Positions 6,716 to 62,748 of a DNA stretch of 64,000 nt are shown here, one piece after another (positions within the stretch are counted from its first letter, which is position 1; the number at the start of each line of letters is the position of its first letter). Both the position numbers and the translations under genes were made by a program. The DNA comes from Streptomonospora mangrovi (GTDB lineage Bacteria; Actinomycetota; Actinomycetes; Streptosporangiales; Streptosporangiaceae): NCBI RefSeq assembly GCF_027604915.1, contig NZ_JAJAQC010000031.1, forward strand, positions 1 to 64,000, given 5' to 3'. Under the pieces are notes generated by a model, which was not told the DNA's origin, ran no database searches, and saw nothing but the letters and a program-made list of their open reading frames with translations.

Positions 6716-7371
6716 CCGGCGCCGCGCCGGTCCTCGCGGCGGCCGCCGCGGTCGACCGCGAGGAGGGCGCGCGCCTGGCCCGCGAGGAACTCGCCAAGCC
6801 CGCCTACCGCGAGGCCGAACCCAGCCTGCTGGAGCTGGTCCTCCAGTGGATCGACGACTGGATCGCCGACATCCTCGACATCGGCATGGACGTCCCCGGC
6901 GGCTGGTGGGTGCTCGCGCCGCTGCTGGCGCTCCTCGCCGTGCTGCTCGTGGGCCTGGTCGTGTACCTGCGCCCGTCCCTGCGGCGGCGCCGCGCCGGCG
7001 CCGCCGTCGACACCGGCGCCCCGCTGACCGCCGCCGACCACCGGGCCGCCGCCGAACGCCACGCCGCCGCCGGCGACTACGCCGCCGCCATCCGCGAACG
7101 GCTGCGCGCCATCAGCCGCGACCTGGAGGACCGGGCCGTGATCACCCCGCGCCCCGGCCGCACGGCCACCGAACTCGCGGCCGAGACCGCCGTGGAGCTG
7201 CCCCACCTGCGCGACCGCCTCTACGCCGCCGCCACCACGTTCAACGACTCCGCCTACGGCCAGCGCACCGCCACCGCCGAGGGCTACCGCCTGCTCAGCG
7301 ACCTCGACGACCGCCTGCGCGAGGGCCGCCCCGCCGCCACCGCCGCCGCGACCGAGGGCGGTGCCGCGTGA
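6712..7371 (+). CDS. DUF4129 domain membrane protein
   Basis: 219 aa starting at TTG 6712, which overlaps the previous stop by 4 bases (TTGA). It has an N-terminal amphipathic region, one strong membrane helix near residues 65-85 (WWVLAPLLALLAVLLVGLVVYL), and a C-terminal helical cytoplasmic domain with HAAAGDYAAAIRERLRAI and PRPGRTATELA, the hallmarks of DUF4129. In actinobacteria this family lies with DUF4350, MoxR and DUF58 genes, as here; the module may act in envelope assembly or protein maturation, but no activity is proven. Its TGA overlaps the GTG of the next gene. Confidence 0.82.
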   Translation: MTGAAPVLAAAAAVDREEGARLAREELAKPAYREAEPSLLELVLQWIDDWIADILDIGMDVPGGWWVLAPLLALLAVLLVGLVVYLRPSLRRRRAGAAVDTGAPLTAADHRAAAERHAAAGDYAAAIRERLRAISRDLEDRAVITPRPGRTATELAAETAVELPHLRDRLYAAATTFNDSAYGQRTATAEGYRLLSDLDDRLREGRPAATAAATEGGAA

Positions 7372-52977: not shown

Positions 52978-53140
52978 GGAGGCCGCGACGGTCTTCTTTC
53001 GAGAGGGCCGTGGGGAACGCCGCTGGCAGTCCTGTCGGAAGCGCCTCCGGCAGCCCGCCGGCAACGCGGGACACCGCCCCGCGCGCGTTCGGGCGCGCGC
53101 GGGACCGCCGGTGCGCGGGACCGCCGACTACGCTGACGAC

Positions 53141-54091
53141 GTGCTGAGCCGCCTCCGCGCCAACCGATGGGTGCGCCTGTCCGTCGTCGCGCTCGTCCTC
53201 GCCTTCGCCGGCGCCGCCCTCTACAGCCGCTGGGACGAGGCGCGCGACGCGCTGAGCGCGCTGTCGCCCTGGGTCCTGGCGGCCTCGGCGCTGGCGGCCA
53301 TGGCCGGGCTGGGCGCGCAGATGATGGCCTGGCGGGCGATCCTGGCCGGCCTGGGCTCGCGGCTGCCCGTGGCGGCGGCGGCGCGCGTGATGTTCCTCGG
53401 CCAGCTCGGCAAGTACCTGCCCGGGTCGGTGTGGGCGTTCGTCGCCCAGGTGGAGCTGGCGCGCGACCACCGCGTGGAGCGGCCGCGCGGCCTGAGCGCG
53501 ACGCTGCTGGCGGTGGCGGTGACGCTGACCGTGAACCTCGCCGTGGCCGCCGCGACCCTGCCGTTCGTCTCCGAGGCCGCGGCGCGCCGCTGGTGGTGGG
53601 TGCTGGTGTGCGCGCCCCTGCTGCTGGCCGCCCTGCACCCCCGGGTGGTCACGGCGGCCGTCCGCGCGGCGACGCGGCTGGTGCCGCGCGCGCGGCGGCC
53701 GGCCGGCGCCGCGCCGGACCGGATCGGCGGGCGGGCGATGGCGGCGGCGGTGGCGTGGTCGCTGGCCGCGTGGGTACCGCTGGCCGTGCACGTGTGGGCG
53801 CTGACGGCCGCCGCCGGCGCGGGCGGCGACCCCCGCGCCCTGCCGGCCGCCGCCGGGGCCTACGCGCTGGCGTGGACGCTGGGCGTCCTGGTGGTGTTCG
53901 CGCCCGCCGGCCTGGGGGTGCGGGAGGTGGTGCTGGTGGTGGGCCTGGCCCCGGTACTCGACCCGGGGTCGGCGCTGGTGGTGGCCGCGCTGTCGCGGTT
54001 GATCATGACCGTGGCCGACCTGGCGTGCGCGGGGCTGGCCATGCTCGCGACCCGCTCCCCGGTGGCACCCGGCCGACCGGAAGCCTCCTGA
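53141..54091 (+). CDS. Lysylphosphatidylglycerol synthase transmembrane-region / flippase-like protein (UPF0104 type)
   Basis: 316 aa from GTG 53141, six nt after a -10-like TACGCT (53129-53134), probably leaderless. It has about eight membrane helices. Signatures: ARVMFLGQLGKYLPGSVWAF and, near the end, VVFAPAGLGVREVVLVVGLA with SRLIMTVADL, as in AglD/MprF-like integral membrane domains. There is no MprF lysyl-transferase domain, so it probably works with glycosyltransferases or as a lipid flippase. Substrate unknown. Confidence 0.85.
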   Translation: MLSRLRANRWVRLSVVALVLAFAGAALYSRWDEARDALSALSPWVLAASALAAMAGLGAQMMAWRAILAGLGSRLPVAAAARVMFLGQLGKYLPGSVWAFVAQVELARDHRVERPRGLSATLLAVAVTLTVNLAVAAATLPFVSEAAARRWWWVLVCAPLLLAALHPRVVTAAVRAATRLVPRARRPAGAAPDRIGGRAMAAAVAWSLAAWVPLAVHVWALTAAAGAGGDPRALPAAAGAYALAWTLGVLVVFAPAGLGVREVVLVVGLAPVLDPGSALVVAALSRLIMTVADLACAGLAMLATRSPVAPGRPEAS

Positions 54092-54190
54092 GCGGCGCGC
54101 CTCGCGGGTGCGGGCCGCCCCGGCGGGCCTCATCGGGCGCCGCCCGGCCGTACCGGACGCAAGCCGCCCTTTTCCGGCCACCGGTCACCG

Positions 54191-54478
54191 GCCCGGCGCC
54201 CGGGAAGTGCCATGGAGGGCGCACGGCAGCCACCCGGACAGGCGGGGTCAGGGGGCACCGCCCCTCCACATCCCCGCGAAGCTTGGCGAGCCCGGCCGAC
54301 CGGTGACCGGTCATGCGCGAACACGGTTCACCGGCCCGGTCATCGGCCCAGTGTTCTCCCCGCGCCTGGGTGCTGCCACGGCGGGCGCAGGGCGGACCGT
54401 CCGGACAGGCGGGGATCAGGGAACACCGCCGCTCCACGTGCTTGGAGTTTGGCGAGGGCGGCCGACCGGTGGGCGGCC
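54191..54478. repeat. Diverged direct repeat of about 120 bp: second copy of the 3' end of the first TPR-like gene
   Basis: 54191-54310 and 54357-54478 share long matches in the same order (TGCCA(T/C)GG, GGGCGCA, CCGGACAGGCGGGG, CACCGCC, CTCCAC, TTGGCGAG, GGCCGACCGGTG). The right copy encodes the C-terminal part of the 54340 gene (HRSAALAKL...RPPWQHPGAG); the left copy, outside the gene, still reads HRSAGLAKL...RPPWHFPGAG on the minus strand. Offset about 166 bp. Confidence 0.82.
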
Positions 54479-56061
54479 GGCGCGGCGCCTCTGAGGGCGG
54501 TCGGCCCGACCGCGTCGTTCTTCCTCGCGAGGACCTCGGCGCCGCGTGTGCGCAGATCCTGCAACCGCTGGGCGCTGGTGACGGTGCGGGTGGACAGCGG
54601 GAGAGGGTCGGCGCCGGCTGTGCCGGCCGGGGCGGCTGTGCCCGCCGTCCCGGTGGCGGCGGCCCTGCCTCCCGCATCCGCCCCGCCGGCCGCGCGTCGG
54701 GCCGCCGCTTCCGCGCGTACGGCGAACAACTGGTGCCCCTCGGCGGCGCGCAGCAGGGCCGCGGCCTCCCGCAGGCCGACGCCGGGGGCCTCGGCGCGGC
54801 GGGCGCTCATGTCCGCCAGCGCCTCGGCGGCGTCGCGGACCCGGGGGTCGTGTGCGCCGAAGTGCCGGGCCAGCTCCCGGGGCAGCCGGTGGAACATCAC
54901 CTCGGCGTCGGCCCAGTTCCGGCGCTGCTCGCCCGCCTCCTCCCCCGGCTCGGTCTCGGGGCCGTCGGCCAGTGCCCGCAGCAGCAGGTAGGAGTCTGCC
55001 GCGCGCCGGGCGGGGTTGTCGGCCTCCACCTCCTGGCTGATCCCCCACGCCTCGCGCAGCAGGTCGCGGCGCTCCCGCGCCTCGCCGCGGCGCGCCTCGC
55101 CGTCGCGCACCGCCTCGCCGAGCCGGGTGGGGCCCTCCTCCCACAGGGCCAGGTCCGCCAGCCACTGGGCGTGCGCCTGCGCGGTGTCGCGCAGGGCCAG
55201 GTACGTCTCGGCGGTCTCCGAACTGCGTTCACCCACCGCATCGCCCCGCTCCAGATACCGCACCGTGCCGCGCAGCCTGTCGGCGAGGTCGATCAGGTCG
55301 TCCTCGGCGGTGAAGGCGCCCGCGGCCAGCCGCCGCCGCGCCAGTTCGGCGTAGGTGTGGGCCACGGGCCGCATCCCGGGTCCGGCCAGGTCGAGGTCGA
55401 CGCCGTCCAGGAGGTCGGCGGCGCTCCGCATCGCGGTGTACTCGACGGCTGCCCGCTGGGGCGAGTCCGGCAGGCTCTCCGCCCACTCCGTCTGCCGGTG
55501 CAGCAGCTCGGTGCGCAGCTCGCGGAGCCGCTGCCCCGTGCCGGGGCGCAGCCGTTCGATGGCCTCGGCGTTGCGCAGGTGGGCGACGGCGTCGGCCGGC
55601 GGGGCCGTGCGCGCGGCCTCCTCGAAGTGGGTCTGGAGGCGTTTGAGGTCGGCGTGGACGGTGTCGGCGAGCATGCGGCGCTCGGCGTCGGGCAGGGGTA
55701 CCGGACCTTCGGTCAGGTGGGTGTACGCCCGGGACAGCCCGTGGTGGGCGAGGTGCGGGTCGCCCATCGCCATCGAGCTGCGCCCGGCGATGAGGGCCGC
55801 CTCGACGGCGTAGGCCGCCAGCCGGCTGTCGTCATAGGCCGACGTGGCGAACTCGGCGCCGGCGGCCCACTGGCGCGCGTTGGCGTAGTCGCCCCGCGCG
55901 TACAGCTCGGCCGCCTGCTGCACCCGCCGGTGCAGGTCGTCTTCGAGGGCGGCCCGGTGCGCCTCCGTCGCGGGGTAGCGCTGACCCGGCTGCCGCCCGC
56001 CCTCGACGTGGTTGACCGGGTCTCTGTTCCCCTGCTTCGGCCCGGCCGCGTCCTCCGCCAT
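54340..56061 (-). CDS. Tandem helical-repeat protein, paralog 1 (last in transcription order)
   Basis: 573 aa from ATG 56061 with GGGGAGGGG upstream. All-helical with TPR-like pairs: RRVQQAAELYARGDYANARQ, AALIAGRSSMAMGDPHLAHH and GLSRAYTHL. The family C-terminal block is RRDLLREAWGISQEVEADNP, AADSYLLLRALADG, then WADAEVMFHRLPRELARHFG and AHDPRVRDAAEALADMSARR. Residues after about 490 are a Gly/Ala linker and a terminal motif HRSAALAKLQARG...RPPW that is duplicated just outside the gene. No signal peptide, membrane helix or catalytic motif seen. It lies 275 bp after paralog 2. Function unknown. Confidence 0.8.
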   Translation of the reverse strand: MAEDAAGPKQGNRDPVNHVEGGRQPGQRYPATEAHRAALEDDLHRRVQQAAELYARGDYANARQWAAGAEFATSAYDDSRLAAYAVEAALIAGRSSMAMGDPHLAHHGLSRAYTHLTEGPVPLPDAERRMLADTVHADLKRLQTHFEEAARTAPPADAVAHLRNAEAIERLRPGTGQRLRELRTELLHRQTEWAESLPDSPQRAAVEYTAMRSAADLLDGVDLDLAGPGMRPVAHTYAELARRRLAAGAFTAEDDLIDLADRLRGTVRYLERGDAVGERSSETAETYLALRDTAQAHAQWLADLALWEEGPTRLGEAVRDGEARRGEARERRDLLREAWGISQEVEADNPARRAADSYLLLRALADGPETEPGEEAGEQRRNWADAEVMFHRLPRELARHFGAHDPRVRDAAEALADMSARRAEAPGVGLREAAALLRAAEGHQLFAVRAEAAARRAAGGADAGGRAAATGTAGTAAPAGTAGADPLPLSTRTVTSAQRLQDLRTRGAEVLARKNDAVGPTALRGAAPAAHRSAALAKLQARGAAVFPDPRLSGRSALRPPWQHPGAGRTLGR

Positions 56062-56336
56062 GTGCTGCCCCTCCCCCGAACTCGCGTGGTGCGCTCCCCC
56101 GCGCACGGCGCTCCATCGCCAAGCGCCGTCCTGTCCGACCGGCGGCGGCACTCGGCGGTTCCCCTGGTCAGCGCCGTATGGGCGTGATCGTCACCACCGG
56201 CGCCCGGGAGCCGGGGCGGCGGAGGGCTGCTGGAGCGGGGCCACAGGCGCGCAGCGCGACGGCGCGCGGCACCGGCGCGGAAATGTTCAAGGCACCGGGG
56301 CGGCAGATCACCCGGGCGCCGAGGCGGCGGAGCCGC

Positions 56337-58181
56337 TCAGGCGTGACCTCGGCCGCGCAGGCGGGCGGCTCGGGCCGCCGACGCGGGGGTGGTGCGGGCG
56401 GCGGACGCCGTGGTGGTGCCCATCCGGCCCAGCCGGTCTTTCGCGGGGAGGAAGCTGTCGGCCGTCACGCCGCTCCGGGGAGCGCCCAGTCCCCGCGACC
56501 GAGCGCTCCAGCCGCGCGCCGCGCCTTCGCGCTCCCGGCTCGCGGCCACCGCCCGGCGCACGCCCGGGGGCGTGTACCGCCCCTTCTCCAGGCGGTCGGC
56601 CCGGGCGCGCAGCTCGGCGAGTTCGGCGCTCCGCTGCTCGGCGGCCCGGTCCGCCGGCCGGTCGGGCGGCACGGCGAGCTGGGCGGCGGGATCGAGCGGT
56701 CCGTCCGCCGGGCGGGCGGAAGGCCGTCCGGCGCCGGGCGCGGCGGCGCGCGGGGCGGTGCCGACCTGGGCGTGGTAGCGCTCGGCGTTGGCGATCAGCT
56801 CCCGCGCCGCGCCGGCGGCGTCCTTGGCCGTCGCGGCGGTGGCGGCCTGCTCACCCTCGGCGAGGTGGCCGCGGGCGCGCTCGGCCGCGATGGCGTACAG
56901 CACCTCGGCCGTCTGACCGGGCCGCCGGTCGCCGGGCGGCAGGACCTCGCGTAGCGCCTGGGGCAGGTCCGCGAACTCGCGCTCCGCCGCCGACCAATCG
57001 GCGCGGGTGCCGCTCTCGGCGAGCGCCATCAGGTAGGCGAAGGAGTCGGTGAGCAGCCGTGTCGAGTTGGCGGGCTCGTAGGCACGGCTCAACTCCCACA
57101 CCTGCCGCAGGTGGTCGCGTCGGCTGCGCATGCCGTTCAGGTGCGCGCGGTCGCCGTCGGGGGAAGCGGTCTCCGTCTCCTCGGCCTGGCGCTCCTTGGA
57201 CGGCTCGGCCTCCTGCCCGCCGGCGGCACGCAGGGCCGCTTCAGCGCCGGCGGCGCGCGCCGTGTGCACCTCGCGCAGCGTGAGCCCCACCTCCCGGGCG
57301 TACTCCCTGTCGCTCGCGTCCTTGCTTGCCGCGAGCGCGCCGTGCGCGTCGCCCAACTCCTCTGTCAGCTCGGTGAGCAGGACACCGGGAAGCTCCCTCC
57401 CCGTCTCCCGCACCGCCTCCAGCCACATCCGCACGGCCCGCGTGTGCGAGATCCGGCGCGAGTGCTCCTCGTGGAGGAACCGGAGGTCGTCGAAGTCCGT
57501 GGTGAGGTCCTTGACCGTCACCGCGAGATCGTGGCGGGCGTGCGGGTCGGCGAAACCCTCTGCCCGGTCGAGCAGCGCTTTGGCCAGGTAGAGCCGCCCT
57601 GCGGGACCCGTGGAGGCGCGCCGCTCGGCCTCCGTGATGGCGCCCAGCAGCTTCCGCGAGATCATTCGGAACTGGTGCGCCGTGCCGGCGTCGCGGGTGT
57701 GGGCCGCGGCGGTGTAGAGCTGCTCGTGCACATCCTGCACGTCTTGGAGGACCTGCGGGACGAGGGAGTCCCGCCGATCCTGCGGCCAGACGTGCGCGTT
57801 GTCCCGCAGCATCATGTAGCCGACCCGCAGGTACTGGGCTGCGTCGTCCATGCGTACGGCGGCACCGCCGAAATTGCCCTTCTTCAGCAGGTTCCCGCCC
57901 AGGCCGACCAGCGCGTGGCCGGCCGCCAGCCTGGCGGAGGTCCGCACCCCCTGGAACGGGGGGTCATCACGACCCGCCGTGGCGTCCAGCACCGCCTCGG
58001 CCCATGCCAGCGCCGCCTCCGGCAATCCGTCCCGCAGCAGCCCTTCGGCGCGGACCAGGGCCGTGGTGGCCTCCACGAGCCGGGTGTCGCCGCTCCACGA
58101 ATCGCCGCTCTCGCGGGCGCGTACGGCGAACGCGTACGCGTTCGTGACCTCGGCGCGTTCTTGGTCCTCGTCCGCCGCCAT
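56337..58181 (-). CDS. Tandem helical-repeat protein, paralog 2
   Basis: 614 aa from ATG 58181 (MAADEDQERAEVTNAYAFAV), ribosome site GGAAGGCGGG. The N-terminal helical pairs include TALVRAEGLLRDGLPEAALA, ARLAAGHALVGLGGNLLKKG and AAQYLRVGYMMLRDNAHVWP. The family C-terminal block is RRDHLRQVWELSRAYEPANS, LTDSFAYLMALAESG, WSAAEREFADLPQALREVLP and QTAEVLYAIAAERARGHLAE. A shared-type tail RAAEQRSAELAELRARADRL is followed by a basic Arg/Ala-rich end. Soluble; no enzyme motif. It starts 87 bp after paralog 3 and is likely in the same mRNA. Confidence 0.82.
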   Translation of the reverse strand: MAADEDQERAEVTNAYAFAVRARESGDSWSGDTRLVEATTALVRAEGLLRDGLPEAALAWAEAVLDATAGRDDPPFQGVRTSARLAAGHALVGLGGNLLKKGNFGGAAVRMDDAAQYLRVGYMMLRDNAHVWPQDRRDSLVPQVLQDVQDVHEQLYTAAAHTRDAGTAHQFRMISRKLLGAITEAERRASTGPAGRLYLAKALLDRAEGFADPHARHDLAVTVKDLTTDFDDLRFLHEEHSRRISHTRAVRMWLEAVRETGRELPGVLLTELTEELGDAHGALAASKDASDREYAREVGLTLREVHTARAAGAEAALRAAGGQEAEPSKERQAEETETASPDGDRAHLNGMRSRRDHLRQVWELSRAYEPANSTRLLTDSFAYLMALAESGTRADWSAAEREFADLPQALREVLPPGDRRPGQTAEVLYAIAAERARGHLAEGEQAATAATAKDAAGAARELIANAERYHAQVGTAPRAAAPGAGRPSARPADGPLDPAAQLAVPPDRPADRAAEQRSAELAELRARADRLEKGRYTPPGVRRAVAASREREGAARGWSARSRGLGAPRSGVTADSFLPAKDRLGRMGTTTASAARTTPASAARAARLRGRGHA

Positions 58182-58268
58182 GGGCCCGCCTTCCGCCGAT
58201 CGCTGGTGGGGCGGCAACAGCATAGGCCGGTCGCGGTGCCCACCGCGCGGCGGGCGCCCGCGACCGCC

Positions 58269-59999
58269 TCACCTGGGGCGGATCCGCGCCGCGCGCGCGA
58301 CGGAGGCGGGGTCGGCCGGCGCGGGGCGGCGGGCGGCGGCACCCGTGGCGGCCTTCCGCCGAGCCCCGGCGGACTTGCCGGAAGCGCTGCGCCCGGCGGC
58401 GGCCGCGACCGCCGGACCCAGCCCACCGCCGTGATTGGCGCGCATGGCGACGTCGGCGATCTCCGCGCGCAGGTCGGCCAGTTCACCGGTGCGCCGCTCG
58501 GTGTCGTTCGCGGGGAGGCGGGGCGGGGGCGGGGTGGCGATGTCGTCCCACGCCAGCGCGCGGCCGGGGGGCACGGCCGGGGGCCGCCCGCGCGACCCGC
58601 TCCGCCCCCCGGCGGGCACGGCCCGCTCGACCTTCGCGAGGAGGACGTGGTGTCGCTCGGCGCGCTCGACGGCCCACTTCGCCTCCTGGAAGTCCGCACC
58701 CGCGTCGGCGCCCGGCGCGGCCGCGCCGCGCTTGGCGGCGTGCCCGGGCAGCAGCGCCCGGGCGTGCTGGGTCGCCATGGCGTACAGCAGTCCGGCGGCC
58801 ACCCGCGCGCGGGGGTCCCCGGCCTCCAGCAGGTCACGCGGCAGTTCGGCGAGTTCGGTCAGGATCTCCCGGCGCTCCTGGTGGTCGGCGCTGCCGCCCT
58901 CGGAGACCGCCACCAGGTAGTCGTAGGCGTCGCCGAGGCGCCGCGACGGGTCGGTCTCGTGCTCGCGGCTGATCCGCCAGACGCGTTCGAGGGCGCCGCG
59001 ACGCTCCGCGAGCTGGTGGGTCGCGTTCTCACCTTCCCTGAGTCGGCCCTGCGCCTCGTTCCCCACGAACCGGGCGTACGCCGCCAGGGCGGCCCGCAGG
59101 AGCAGGTGGATCTCCCGCCGGGCGGCCTCGCCGCCCGGCGTCTGAAGGTCGGGATCGTCGCCGTGGGAGCGGCGGTCGAGGCCGTCGATCCGCTTGGTGA
59201 GGAGGGTGATGTCGTCGACCACGTCCGTGCGGTCCGGCGCCTCCTCGGCGGCCTCGGCCCACTCCAGGTTCCGCCGGTGCGCCTCGGCGCTGAGCGCCTG
59301 GAGCATCGCCCGGTCGCCCGGTTCCACGACGTCGTCGGTCCGTGCGGCGGTGAGCAACCAGGCGCCGTCGATGAGTTGGTGGCGGCCCTCCAGGCTGTCC
59401 ACCTCCCGCGCCTGCCGCAGCAGCCGATCGGCGAGGACCAGCCGCCACCGGGGTCCGTCCTTCGCCCGCTCCTCGAAGGAGACCGCGGCGTTCAGCACCA
59501 ATTTCGCGTTCGCCCGGTAGTCGGCGGCGCCCTCGCCGCCGACGCGGGGCGCCATGTCGTGGCAGTACCCGTGCAGGTCGAGGATGCCGGCGGCGGCCTC
59601 CCCGATGAGCCCGTCGCGGACCGCCTCGTTGGGCCAGGGCACGGCGGGGTCGCGCAGCAGGGTGTAGGCGCCGGCCAGGTCGTCGGCAGCCGGACCGACC
59701 AGGCCGAGGCCGGTGGCGCTGAGCCCCCGGACGAGCAGGGCGGTGGCGTGCTGGTGGGGGAACAGGTCGCCGCCCAGGTCCTTGACCGCGTCGGCCACGC
59801 CGGTGGCCCAGGCGCCGGCGGCGGCGGGCCTGCCGTCGAGGAGGAGCCGCCGGGCGTGCAGGACGCGCCTGTTCAGCTCATCGCCCAGCGCCTCCCAGTC
59901 GGCCCTGGTCCGCGCGGTCGCCGCCCGCCGCACGACGTCACCGTGGAACCTCGCGGCGTTCTCGATCTCGCCCCGGTCCCGGTCGCCTTCCGCCGCCAT
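58269..59999 (-). CDS. Tandem helical-repeat protein, paralog 3
   Basis: 576 aa from ATG 59999, ribosome site GGAGGT at 6 nt. TPR-like region: LNRRVLHARRLLLDGRPAAA, ALLVRGLSATGLGLVGPAAD and DLAGAYTLLRDPAVPWPNEA. C-terminal block: RRGALERVWRISREHETDPS, LGDAYDYLVAVSEGG, then ILTELAELPRDLLEAGDPRA and GLLYAMATQHARALLPG. Then comes TGELADLRAEIADVAMR, as in paralog 2, and an Arg/Ala basic tail. It begins 50 bp after paralog 4. Soluble; no known family recognised. Confidence 0.82.
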   Translation of the reverse strand: MAAEGDRDRGEIENAARFHGDVVRRAATARTRADWEALGDELNRRVLHARRLLLDGRPAAAGAWATGVADAVKDLGGDLFPHQHATALLVRGLSATGLGLVGPAADDLAGAYTLLRDPAVPWPNEAVRDGLIGEAAAGILDLHGYCHDMAPRVGGEGAADYRANAKLVLNAAVSFEERAKDGPRWRLVLADRLLRQAREVDSLEGRHQLIDGAWLLTAARTDDVVEPGDRAMLQALSAEAHRRNLEWAEAAEEAPDRTDVVDDITLLTKRIDGLDRRSHGDDPDLQTPGGEAARREIHLLLRAALAAYARFVGNEAQGRLREGENATHQLAERRGALERVWRISREHETDPSRRLGDAYDYLVAVSEGGSADHQERREILTELAELPRDLLEAGDPRARVAAGLLYAMATQHARALLPGHAAKRGAAAPGADAGADFQEAKWAVERAERHHVLLAKVERAVPAGGRSGSRGRPPAVPPGRALAWDDIATPPPPRLPANDTERRTGELADLRAEIADVAMRANHGGGLGPAVAAAAGRSASGKSAGARRKAATGAAARRPAPADPASVARAARIRPR

Positions 60000-60049
60000 G
60001 CCCCGACCTCCGCTGCACTGGACGAACCAGCATCATACGGTCATCGGTG

Positions 60050-61858
60050 TCATTTCACCCGGGGTGCCGCCACCCTGCTCGGGTGCGGGACGCGGCTGAC
60101 CTCCGTGGCGGAGCCCGGCCGCGCGGCGTCGCCCGGCGCGGTGCCCACGCGCAGCCGCTCCGGGCGCCCCTTGTGCGCCCTCGCGTCGTGGGCGGCGCGC
60201 GCCGCCCGGACTCCCGCGAGGAGCTGGGCGCGCCCGGCCCGCTCGTCCACCTTGAGCGCCGTGAGCGCCCGCCGCAGGGTCTCCTCCATCTCGGTGAGGC
60301 GCAACCGGTCCTCTGAAGGCTCTTTCCCCTCTTTCTCCTGCGGCCCGGTGGTGCGGCCCCCCTCGTCCCTCTCCTCCCCCTGCGGTCCCGTGGTGCGGGG
60401 CTCCTCCCAGGGCCGGTCCCCCGTGATCCCCATCAGCTCGCGCTGGCGCCGGATCGCCTGGCGGGCCGCGTCCCGCGCCGCGCGCGGCTCACCGGCGTCC
60501 AGGTGCGCGCGGGAGCGGGCGTGGGCCATCGAGGCCAGCAGCTCGGTGGCCGCGGCGACCCGGGGGTCATTGGCGCCGAACATGCCCTCGAGGCGCCGGG
60601 GCAGGTCGCCGAAGTGCTCCTCGGCCGTGGCCCAGCCCTCCGGTCCGGCCCACGCCAGGGCCCTGAGGTAGTCGTAGGAGTCCGCCAAGAGGGGCTTGCC
60701 GAGGGATCCCGCCGCGCGGCTGGCCTCCCACGCGGTTCGGCACCACTCCCGGTGGGCCGCGAGCGCGGCGTCCCGCTCGGCGCGGAGCAACCCTGTGTCG
60801 GTGGCGGCCTGACCCGCCCCCGTGGCGCCTCGGCCGTTGGCTGCGGAACCGGCCGGCGCGGCGGCCTCCCCGCTCCGCCCGGCCGCCGCGGCGAGGGCCG
60901 CGGTGCGGTCGTCGGCCTGGGCCCGGTACCCGTCGGCCAGGTGCCGCGCCACGTCGCGCAGGGCCCGGCGGACGTCGACCACGGCCGTGGTGCCCGCTTC
61001 GCCCGGCGCCCGGCTGACCAGGTCGTCGGCCTTGCGCAACTGGTCGGCCAGGGCCGCCAGTTCGACGCGGCTGTCGGTCTCCCCCGCGCCCAGCCACGCC
61101 CGGATCCCGGCGGCATAGGACCACAGCGCCTCGCCCAGGTGGGGGGCGCCGGGCGTCAGGTCCGGGTCGGCGAGCAGCCGCGCAGCGGTCATGCGCGCCG
61201 CGTGGTAGGCCGTCTTCCGGGGGCCGGTGTCCTCCGCATCCGCCAGCGCCCGCCCCTGGAGGTGCAGCAGCCGGGTGCGCCAGCCACGCGCGCGCCGGGG
61301 GTGGGCGGTCTGCGGCAGCAGCGCGTCGACGCGCAGCGCGCGCGTCATGTCGCGCGCGGCCGGCCCGGACCGCTGCCCGGAGGTGTCGGAGCGCTCCACG
61401 AGCCGGTCCCGCAGCGCGGTCAGCTCCGTGCGCACCCGCTCGGCGAGGAGGCGGCGCTCGGCCTCGGCGGGGAGGCGCCCGGGCGCGTGCACCAGGCGGT
61501 GCGCCGCCGTCAGGTGCCGGTAGGCGTCGTCGAGCCGGCCCAGGCGCAGGGCGCTGCCGCCGGCCGTGAACGCGGCCTCCAGTTCGAGGTGGACCGGGCG
61601 GCTCGGCTCCGCGAGCGCCTTCAGGCCGGCGGCCGCGCTGTCGGCCCACTGGTAGGCGTCGGCGAACCGGCCGTCCCGGTACAGGGCCGCGGCGTGCCCC
61701 AGGCGCCGGTCCAGGTCCGCATCGGCGGCCCGGGCCAGTTCGGCGCCGGAGGGCCCGTGGGAGCGCCGCAGCTCGGCGAAGACCGCGAACGCCTCCTGCG
61801 GCCCGTCGGGTCCCCGGGGCACCGCCACCCGCCCCTGCCGCCCGTCCGCCCCGTCCAT
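60050..61858 (-). CDS. Tandem helical-repeat protein, paralog 4 (first in transcription order)
   Basis: 602 aa from ATG 61858, ribosome site GGGAGG. TPR-like pairs: DRRLGHAAALYRDGRFADAY, LEAAFTAGGSALRLGRLDDA and YRHLTAAHRLVHAPGRL. C-terminal block: HREWCRTAWEASRAAGSLGK, LADSYDYLRALAWAG, then WATAEEHFGDLPRRLEGMFG and NDPRVAAATELLASMAHARS. An acidic repeat (TTGPQGEERDEGG, TTGPQEKEGKE) and a helical, basic end follow. It is closest to paralog 1. The hexapeptide acyltransferase gene lies 101 bp upstream on the same strand and may drive it. Confidence 0.82.
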   Translation of the reverse strand: MDGADGRQGRVAVPRGPDGPQEAFAVFAELRRSHGPSGAELARAADADLDRRLGHAAALYRDGRFADAYQWADSAAAGLKALAEPSRPVHLELEAAFTAGGSALRLGRLDDAYRHLTAAHRLVHAPGRLPAEAERRLLAERVRTELTALRDRLVERSDTSGQRSGPAARDMTRALRVDALLPQTAHPRRARGWRTRLLHLQGRALADAEDTGPRKTAYHAARMTAARLLADPDLTPGAPHLGEALWSYAAGIRAWLGAGETDSRVELAALADQLRKADDLVSRAPGEAGTTAVVDVRRALRDVARHLADGYRAQADDRTAALAAAAGRSGEAAAPAGSAANGRGATGAGQAATDTGLLRAERDAALAAHREWCRTAWEASRAAGSLGKPLLADSYDYLRALAWAGPEGWATAEEHFGDLPRRLEGMFGANDPRVAAATELLASMAHARSRAHLDAGEPRAARDAARQAIRRQRELMGITGDRPWEEPRTTGPQGEERDEGGRTTGPQEKEGKEPSEDRLRLTEMEETLRRALTALKVDERAGRAQLLAGVRAARAAHDARAHKGRPERLRVGTAPGDAARPGSATEVSRVPHPSRVAAPRVK

Positions 61859-61959
61859 GGCCGCCTCCCGTGGTCGCCGGTTCCGCGGCCACCGAGCGTA
61901 CTCCCGCGCGGCGCGCCCCGCCCGGCCCTGACCACCGCGAACGCCTAACGGGACGCGGA

Positions 61960-62652
61960 TCACACCTCCGGCGGGGCCACGCTGCCGCCGTCGAGGGTGC
62001 GGGAGGGGTGGGCGGCCTCGCCGCCGCGCAGCGGCGGCACCCAGCCGGCCTCGGGGTCGTAGCGGCGCACGATCCGCCCCGGCACCCCCGCGATCACGCT
62101 GTAGTCGGGGTAGTCGCCGGGGCGCACCACCGAACTGGCGGCGACCACGCAGTTGCGGCCCAGGCGGGCGCCCGGCAGCACCACGGCGTTGGCGCCGATC
62201 CAGGTGCCCGACCCGATGCGGACGGGGTCGTCGGCGGGCCACTGGCGGCCCACGGGCACGTCGGTGTCGGCGTAGACGTGGTTCTGGTCGGTGATGTAGA
62301 CGTAGGGCCCGGTGAAGACGTCGTCGCCCAGTTCGATCGAGCGGTGGGCCACCACGTGGGAGCCGCGCCCGATCGTGCAGCCGTCGCCGATCCGGATCAG
62401 CGGGTGCGGCCCCAGGTCCAGGCCGGGCACCATGCCGGCCGTCAGCGTGATGTCGGCGCCCAGCAGGGTGTGGGCGCCCAGTTCGATCCAGGGCTCGCCG
62501 AAGACGGTGGCGGGCGGGAACGCGATCGAGGTGCCCGGCCCGTAGGCGGCGAAGCGGCGCGCCGCGCGCGAGCCCGCGCGGACGTCGGCGTTGCGCCGCG
62601 CCCAGGACCACAGTGCGCGCAGCGTCCAGGAGAGGAGTCGTGACACCCGCAT
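61960..62652 (-). CDS. Left-handed beta-helix (hexapeptide) acyltransferase, WbbJ type
   Basis: About 230 aa from ATG 62652; in-frame GTG 62658 is an alternative. Hexapeptide repeats run through IRIGDGCTIGRGSHVVAHRS, IELGDDVFTGPYVYITDQNH, VRIGSGTWIGANAVVLPGAR and LGRNCVVAASSVV, ending VIAGVPGRIVRRYD, the standard pattern. The His in DQNHVY is a likely catalytic base. It uses acyl-CoA to acylate sugars or other small hydroxyl compounds. Just upstream of the start is a dyad, ACTGGCCGGTAGT (about 62663-62675). Substrate unknown. Confidence 0.9.
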   Translation of the reverse strand: MRVSRLLSWTLRALWSWARRNADVRAGSRAARRFAAYGPGTSIAFPPATVFGEPWIELGAHTLLGADITLTAGMVPGLDLGPHPLIRIGDGCTIGRGSHVVAHRSIELGDDVFTGPYVYITDQNHVYADTDVPVGRQWPADDPVRIGSGTWIGANAVVLPGARLGRNCVVAASSVVRPGDYPDYSVIAGVPGRIVRRYDPEAGWVPPLRGGEAAHPSRTLDGGSVAPPEV

Positions 62653-62748
62653 CCCCACATCTACTGGCCGGTAGTAACGGGATGCAGCGTATTATCCCCG
62701 CCCCCGCCGGGCGGGCGGGCGCCCGGGTGGCCGCCCGCCCGGCCGGCG

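Follow-up and report, generated by a model that had tools for sequence, protein, structure and literature searches.

Our analysis of a 64,000-nucleotide stretch of the Streptomonospora mangrovi genome (positions 1 to 64,000 of contig NZ_JAJAQC010000031.1; hereafter, the window) revealed that four consecutive minus-strand genes at 54340-61858 are coding and paralogous, and that their products more likely represent a very divergent family related to tetratricopeptide repeat (TPR) proteins than a new motif. We give somewhat better than an even chance to the idea that the array is an accessory cassette whose four products are TPR-like alpha-solenoid proteins, highly divergent and derived from ancient duplications, that act as adaptors or scaffolds. 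A preceding reading made from the letters of this DNA alone (the sequence-only reading) had delineated the array, and its coordinates, strand, lengths and gaps all held. The gaps amount to 50 bp between genes 3 and 4, 87 bp between genes 2 and 3 and 275 bp between genes 1 and 2. In transcription order, the genes are:

60050-61858, minus strand: gene 4, first in transcription order, 602 residues, subfamily A; an open reading frame with a Shine-Dalgarno-like stretch
58269-59999, minus strand: gene 3, 576 residues, subfamily B
56337-58181, minus strand: gene 2, 614 residues, subfamily B
54340-56061, minus strand: gene 1, last in transcription order, 573 residues, subfamily A

The paralogy was assessed by local alignment scores against a control that keeps composition, namely shuffling inside 20-residue blocks, with 200 shuffles per pair. 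In all six gene pairs the real score lay above every one of the 200 shuffles, the z-scores being 5.4, 12.7, 15.9, 19.2, 14.7 and 8.4, and BLASTP E-values went down to 4e-23 (gene 1 against gene 4). Thus, the array does not dissolve into alignments no better than shuffled sequence, the outcome that the sequence-only reading had itself named as fatal. Raw alignment scores are higher in some other frames than in the reported one because of composition; the block-shuffle z-score (60 shuffles per frame) is highest in the reported frame for each of the six pairs. An antisense open reading frame of 1186 residues was considered as the true gene and rejected, given its third-position GC content (0.83, as opposed to 0.91-0.95 in the four array frames) and a frame test favoring the reported frames. 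All four of these are open within the window, and a purine-rich Shine-Dalgarno-like stretch lies 5' of the chosen start in each. A scan for sigma-70 promoters and terminators returned zero and one sites, respectively, which equals the chance expectation.

Judging by their sequences, the four genes fall into two subfamilies, A (genes 1 and 4) and B (genes 2 and 3). In a tree of nine rows, two of them partial (genes 2 and 4 of the congener G003) and with the broken homologue of genome G015 left out, genes 2 and 3 are separated from genes 1 and 4, the latter joined by a single 506-residue homologue from Nocardiopsis trehalosi NBRC 14201 (G163). The N. trehalosi protein is placed beside gene 1 with support of 81/85, on a long branch, and gene 1 is the most similar of the four to the single homologues found elsewhere. 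Each array gene groups first with its own G003 orthologue; therefore, the duplications are older than the split of the two species. Compared in frame with the N. trehalosi homologue, genes 1, 2, 3 and 4 gave z-scores of 14.7, 3.8, 1.4 and 8.9, of which the value for gene 2 is weakly significant (1/60 shuffles as high) and that for gene 3 is not significant pairwise (5/60). The tails, previously described as different in each gene, broadly are so, but those of genes 2 and 3 turned out to be clearly similar (z 5.9, 0/500 shuffles), the only such pair among six, and those of genes 2 and 4 weakly similar (z 2.6, 7/500). A shared basic C-terminal motif, seen by eye, was dropped, the remaining tail pairs being non-significant.

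What, then, are these proteins? Domain scans of five of them, the four array products and the N. trehalosi homologue, produced no NCBIfam match and no PADLOC family at E<=1, no matching chain at E<=1 among Protein Data Bank (PDB) sequences, and only unnamed families in PHROGs (best E 0.0028, gene 1). Every Pfam match, whether to TPR_10, TPR_2, ANAPC3, Clathrin_H_link or the like, was below threshold; the best, TPR_10 in gene 4, scored 15.4 bits against a gathering cut-off of 27.5 (E 0.02), and a Pfam scan of seven members found nothing better than that E-value. This agrees with the earlier remark that no enzymatic motif is visible: the profile libraries contained no enzymatic or other known domain matching at threshold, and for the array proteins the Pfam and NCBIfam scans returned no effector, nuclease or nucleoside triphosphatase (NTPase) family. 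The all-helical TPR-like plan proposed in the sequence-only reading is likewise supported by AlphaFold2 models, which cover genes 1 and 3. Both models are all-helical, with 19 helical elements for gene 1 (mean pLDDT 70.9, pTM 0.55, alignment of four rows) and 24 for gene 3 (mean pLDDT 73.7, pTM 0.59, five rows), and look alike: a run of helices extends to roughly residue 460 and gives way to a disordered linker, after which come one helix of some 25 residues and a tail that is for the most part low in confidence. They are best interpreted as predicted TPR-like helical solenoids. The TPR proteins LGN, Ctr9 and APPBP2 recur, at low scores, among the 50 Foldseek matches to PDB listed for each model; among viral structures, gene 3 had no match at E 0.001, only weaker ones. 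At the sequence level, some of the profile matches outside the family are TPR proteins too, in genomes G126 (E 1.7e-5) and G836 (E 2.4e-4), along with G816 (E 2.6e-4), near-identical to G836 by eye. The N-terminal helix pairs aligned with the G126 protein in hhalign at E 9.1e-4 and a probability of 23%, compared with E 0.83 for the control.

The C-terminal blocks of two of the genes are located as follows:

60419-60787, minus strand: C-terminal block of gene 4, with a sub-threshold Pfam TPR_10 match at residues 442-477
54682-55089, minus strand: C-terminal block of gene 1, read as degenerate TPR_10/TPR_12-type repeats

The common motif block proposed earlier is present in outline but looser than written. 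R-x3-L-x3-W-x-x-S is intact in three of the four genes, its first two positions being H and C in gene 4; the W-A-x-x-E-x-x-F part is missing from gene 3; and gene 2 reads DRR in place of DPR. In an alignment of ten homologous rows, D and R are the only invariant residues. In genes 1 and 4 the block ranks with the better conserved parts of the protein, whereas in gene 3 it is conserved no better than the rest. As to its standing as a family of its own, the block does go unnamed at threshold, but its W..E..F..LP..xDPR..A..LA pattern aligns weakly, and in register, with repeats of the TPR_10/TPR_12 type. A profile of the block recovered homologues accepted in four of five matched genomes among 341. 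In the class sample, a search with the block brought up G816 and G836, the G836 protein comprising seven TPR_10 and six TPR_12 stretches by Pfam. In hhalign, the gene 1 block matched this protein at E 0.0021 and a probability of 13%, compared with E 0.64 and 0.1% for an unrelated protein, such that N-W-A-D-A-E-V-M-F...F-G-A-H-D-P-R-V...A-E-A-L-A lies over the repeat D-W-S-G-A-H...L-G-N-D-D-P-R-T...A-H-A-L-A. With moderate confidence, we interpret the block as a degenerate pair of TPR repeats rather than a new motif.

Among known proteins, the kinesin light chain type of TPR (TPR_12/TPR_10, as in the G836 protein) resembles the array in its helix-pair plan and in the G-x-D-(H/D)-P turn with A..LA after it, and aligns with it weakly, in register, at the profile level; unlike it, none of the four proteins reaches the Pfam gathering score of any TPR model, and the hhalign probability stays at the 13% just given. 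The LGN/Pins TPR domain (PDB 5a7d, 3sf4, 4wnd) is an all-helical superhelix that recurs among the Foldseek matches of both models, but it is eukaryotic, only about 10-15% identical, with template modeling (TM) scores of 0.18-0.47 by either length, and is undetectable in the PDB sequence search at E<=1. Weak Foldseek matches of gene 1 include a Rap-type regulator (PDB 4gyo), a bacterial TPR solenoid, although its TM scores are 0.16-0.22 and Rap-type regulators belong to a different phylum. The array proteins differ from STAND/NB-ARC TPR proteins in having no NTPase family match ahead of the repeats.

The family is narrowly distributed. We searched genome samples that overlap one another, and the family, phylum, class and order searches scored 3-13 first-look candidates per genome, which makes absences less firm than the counts. 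The S. mangrovi genome itself holds these four copies and no other (76/76 candidates scored), and among 41 relatives three matched: the genome itself, G003 and G015. Among 341 genomes of the family, the full-length profile matched six, of which four were accepted (own, G003, G015 and G163); the C-terminal block profile matched five and four were accepted; and the G163 protein as query matched five with three accepted, missing the S. mangrovi genome. Wider samples gave the own genome alone (396 phylum genomes), four matches with two accepted (394 class genomes) and four matches, all accepted (121 order genomes). Beyond S. mangrovi and G003, two further homologues were found among the 341 family genomes, both single and one of them broken. 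That of N. trehalosi is set among unrelated genes, several kilobases from ATP synthase genes, these names being read from the sequences. The G015 copy (L017, 10735-12008) is divided between two reading frames and apparently has no N-terminal helices. Several candidates were rejected: G131, G295 and G001 at 95657, where the loci read as other genes with no family-like protein; G126 and G836, which are TPR proteins by Pfam, together with G816; and G302, which matched the linker part of the profile alone. Gene 1 had no match in phage or plasmid records and no relative in a scan of viral contigs. For gene 4, plasmid records were blank and an alignment against genome contigs found no relative, though that scan may exclude records near the window. 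A narrow search of open-licence papers turned up no title or opening of an abstract dealing with these genes.

The array lies between two convergent genes that the genus retains, named here from sequence resemblance:

61960-62658, minus strand: right flank, acyltransferase-like gene, present in 6/6 species of the genus
53111-54091, plus strand: left flank, membrane-protein-like gene, convergent with the array

Only one of five congeners, G003, has the same four genes in the same order. G001, G002, G004 and G005 keep the order of the flanks, but with no array gene in between according to tblastn. In G002 and G005 the gap between the flanks is about 0.2 kb; the G004 slot (L044, 14429-15151) holds a small exonuclease-like frame and the G001 slot (L045, 13926-15329) a methyltransferase-like frame, both labeled by eye with no domain search. 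Since the flanks are kept while the array is absent or replaced in four of six species, this intergenic site looks like a variable slot, the array being one cargo, carried by two of the six, and it may be a recurrent insertion site. The block edges (54086-54400 and 61831-61975) share no 11-base word, direct or inverted, and two 10-mers. The four kept copies pointed out in the sequence-only reading recur in order in G003, but are not a rule, the two other lineages found carrying one copy each. No recurrent partner gene was seen beside the homologues, and the earlier suggestion of a possible system is therefore unproven.

Comparison with G003 shows how fast these genes change. Identity in the six array genes or pieces spans 52-83%, gene 3 being the lowest at 52%, and their dN/dS ratios (nonsynonymous to synonymous rates) are 0.42-0.88 by the NG86 method, all below 1; six flanking genes are 78-97% identical, with NG86 values of 0.09-0.38. 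At such third-position GC content NG86 is biased, and YN00 gave 0.17-0.29 in three of the six array pieces and 0.04-0.20 in four flanks. With ratios below 1 and yet above those of the flanks, the array genes are constrained, but weakly. Indels relative to G003 are mostly multiples of three. Apart from the G003 deletions, those that are not comprise alignment gaps that compensate one another, in genes 1 and 3, and an effect of the alignment end in gene 2. The three G003 deletions, of 1, 1 and 2 bases (L014), break frames, two in the gene 2 orthologue and one in that of gene 4; the G003 genome consists of two contigs, and the deletions may be real decay or sequencing error.

Given four diverged copies, no enzyme found and no linked partner seen, adaptors with different ligands appear to be the likeliest role. 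TPR proteins use the groove of their superhelix to bind peptides or proteins, and the solenoids of the array might hold a peptide or protein partner in the same way, each of the four copies with its own ligand. Copies may associate through the helix that follows the linker, and a single transcript starting upstream of gene 4 probably covers the four genes. The proteins would then serve as adaptors or scaffolds, not enzymes, and, because no partner gene is seen traveling with the array, would act on host components encoded elsewhere.

Several observations weigh against this explanation. The hhalign probabilities (13% and 23%) are low, and the values are flattered because both targets were chosen among proteins that the searches had returned. 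The Foldseek TM scores by query length are 0.08-0.31 with root-mean-square deviations mostly above 10, designed helical repeats are also among the matches, filling the top three for gene 3, and the models themselves reach only pLDDT 71-74 and pTM 0.55-0.59 on alignments of four and five rows. A repeat model derived from a single TPR protein failed to separate most family members from shuffles: the best family match was 4.7 bits, four of 11 proteins had at most 4/100 shuffles as high and the other seven had 17-100, although a true TPR positive control was missed as well. The other weak profile matches (G131, G295 and G001) are noise. Finally, the frame breaks of G003 and G015 are as compatible with decay as with function.

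Decay is the best surviving alternative, although an unlikely one: the solenoid genes, once duplicated, would be only weakly constrained, would do little at present and would be on their way to loss. The raised NG86 ratios, the three G003 deletions, the split G015 homologue and the patchy occurrence in a variable slot all suit it, as does a further feature next to the array:

54192-54319, minus strand: decayed duplicate of the gene 1 3' end, a copy of 54358-54484 lying outside the gene, just past its stop

The local alignment score of this duplicate is 100, compared with a maximum of 41 in 1000 block shuffles, and a repeat search also recovered its 31-nucleotide core; it may have arisen by duplication of the tail or be what is left of a fifth copy. 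However, the four frames in the window are open, in-frame similarity is far above that of other frames, indels come mostly in threes, the YN00 ratios obtained, for three of the six pieces, are low and the breaks seen in G003 and G015 may stem from sequencing errors.

It is rather improbable that the array is a defense or conflict module for kin or phage recognition, in which four diverged sensors would detect different invader proteins through the solenoid groove. Patchy presence, change faster than in the flanks and the different cargo that two sister species carry at the site fit such a module. On the other hand, PADLOC was blank for all five proteins, effector, nuclease and NTPase families were missing, the phage and plasmid records searched with gene 1 and the plasmid records searched with gene 4 yielded nothing, and by eye, with no domain search there, no defense gene was recognized beside the N. 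trehalosi and G015 copies.

Returning to adaptors, a more elaborate version strikes us as quite doubtful: a four-part recognition cassette whose co-transcribed solenoids are joined via the shared C-terminal repeat and the helix that follows it, with grooves diverged for four targets, the whole being an accessory block that can be inserted and that a few actinobacteria of the N. trehalosi family carry. Least probable of all is an obligate hetero-tetramer with the C-terminal block as shared assembly interface, since the N. trehalosi homologue is single and the gene 3 block is not better conserved than its surroundings, even though all four genes have a G003 orthologue in kept order and the block stands out in genes 1 and 4.

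Whichever explanation prevails, the array represents an unnamed, narrowly distributed TPR-like family that the profile libraries tried here miss, and it sets up a clean natural comparison: of six related species, two carry the four-gene block and four lack it at the corresponding site. Should the genes be functional, those species make their role testable through presence or absence and deletion; if they are decaying, they show how quickly solenoid paralogues drift beyond recognition. Far from the array, at 6886-7371 on the plus strand, the window also contains a small frame, part of which looks repetitive, close to a gene resembling MoxR, both labels being assigned by eye.

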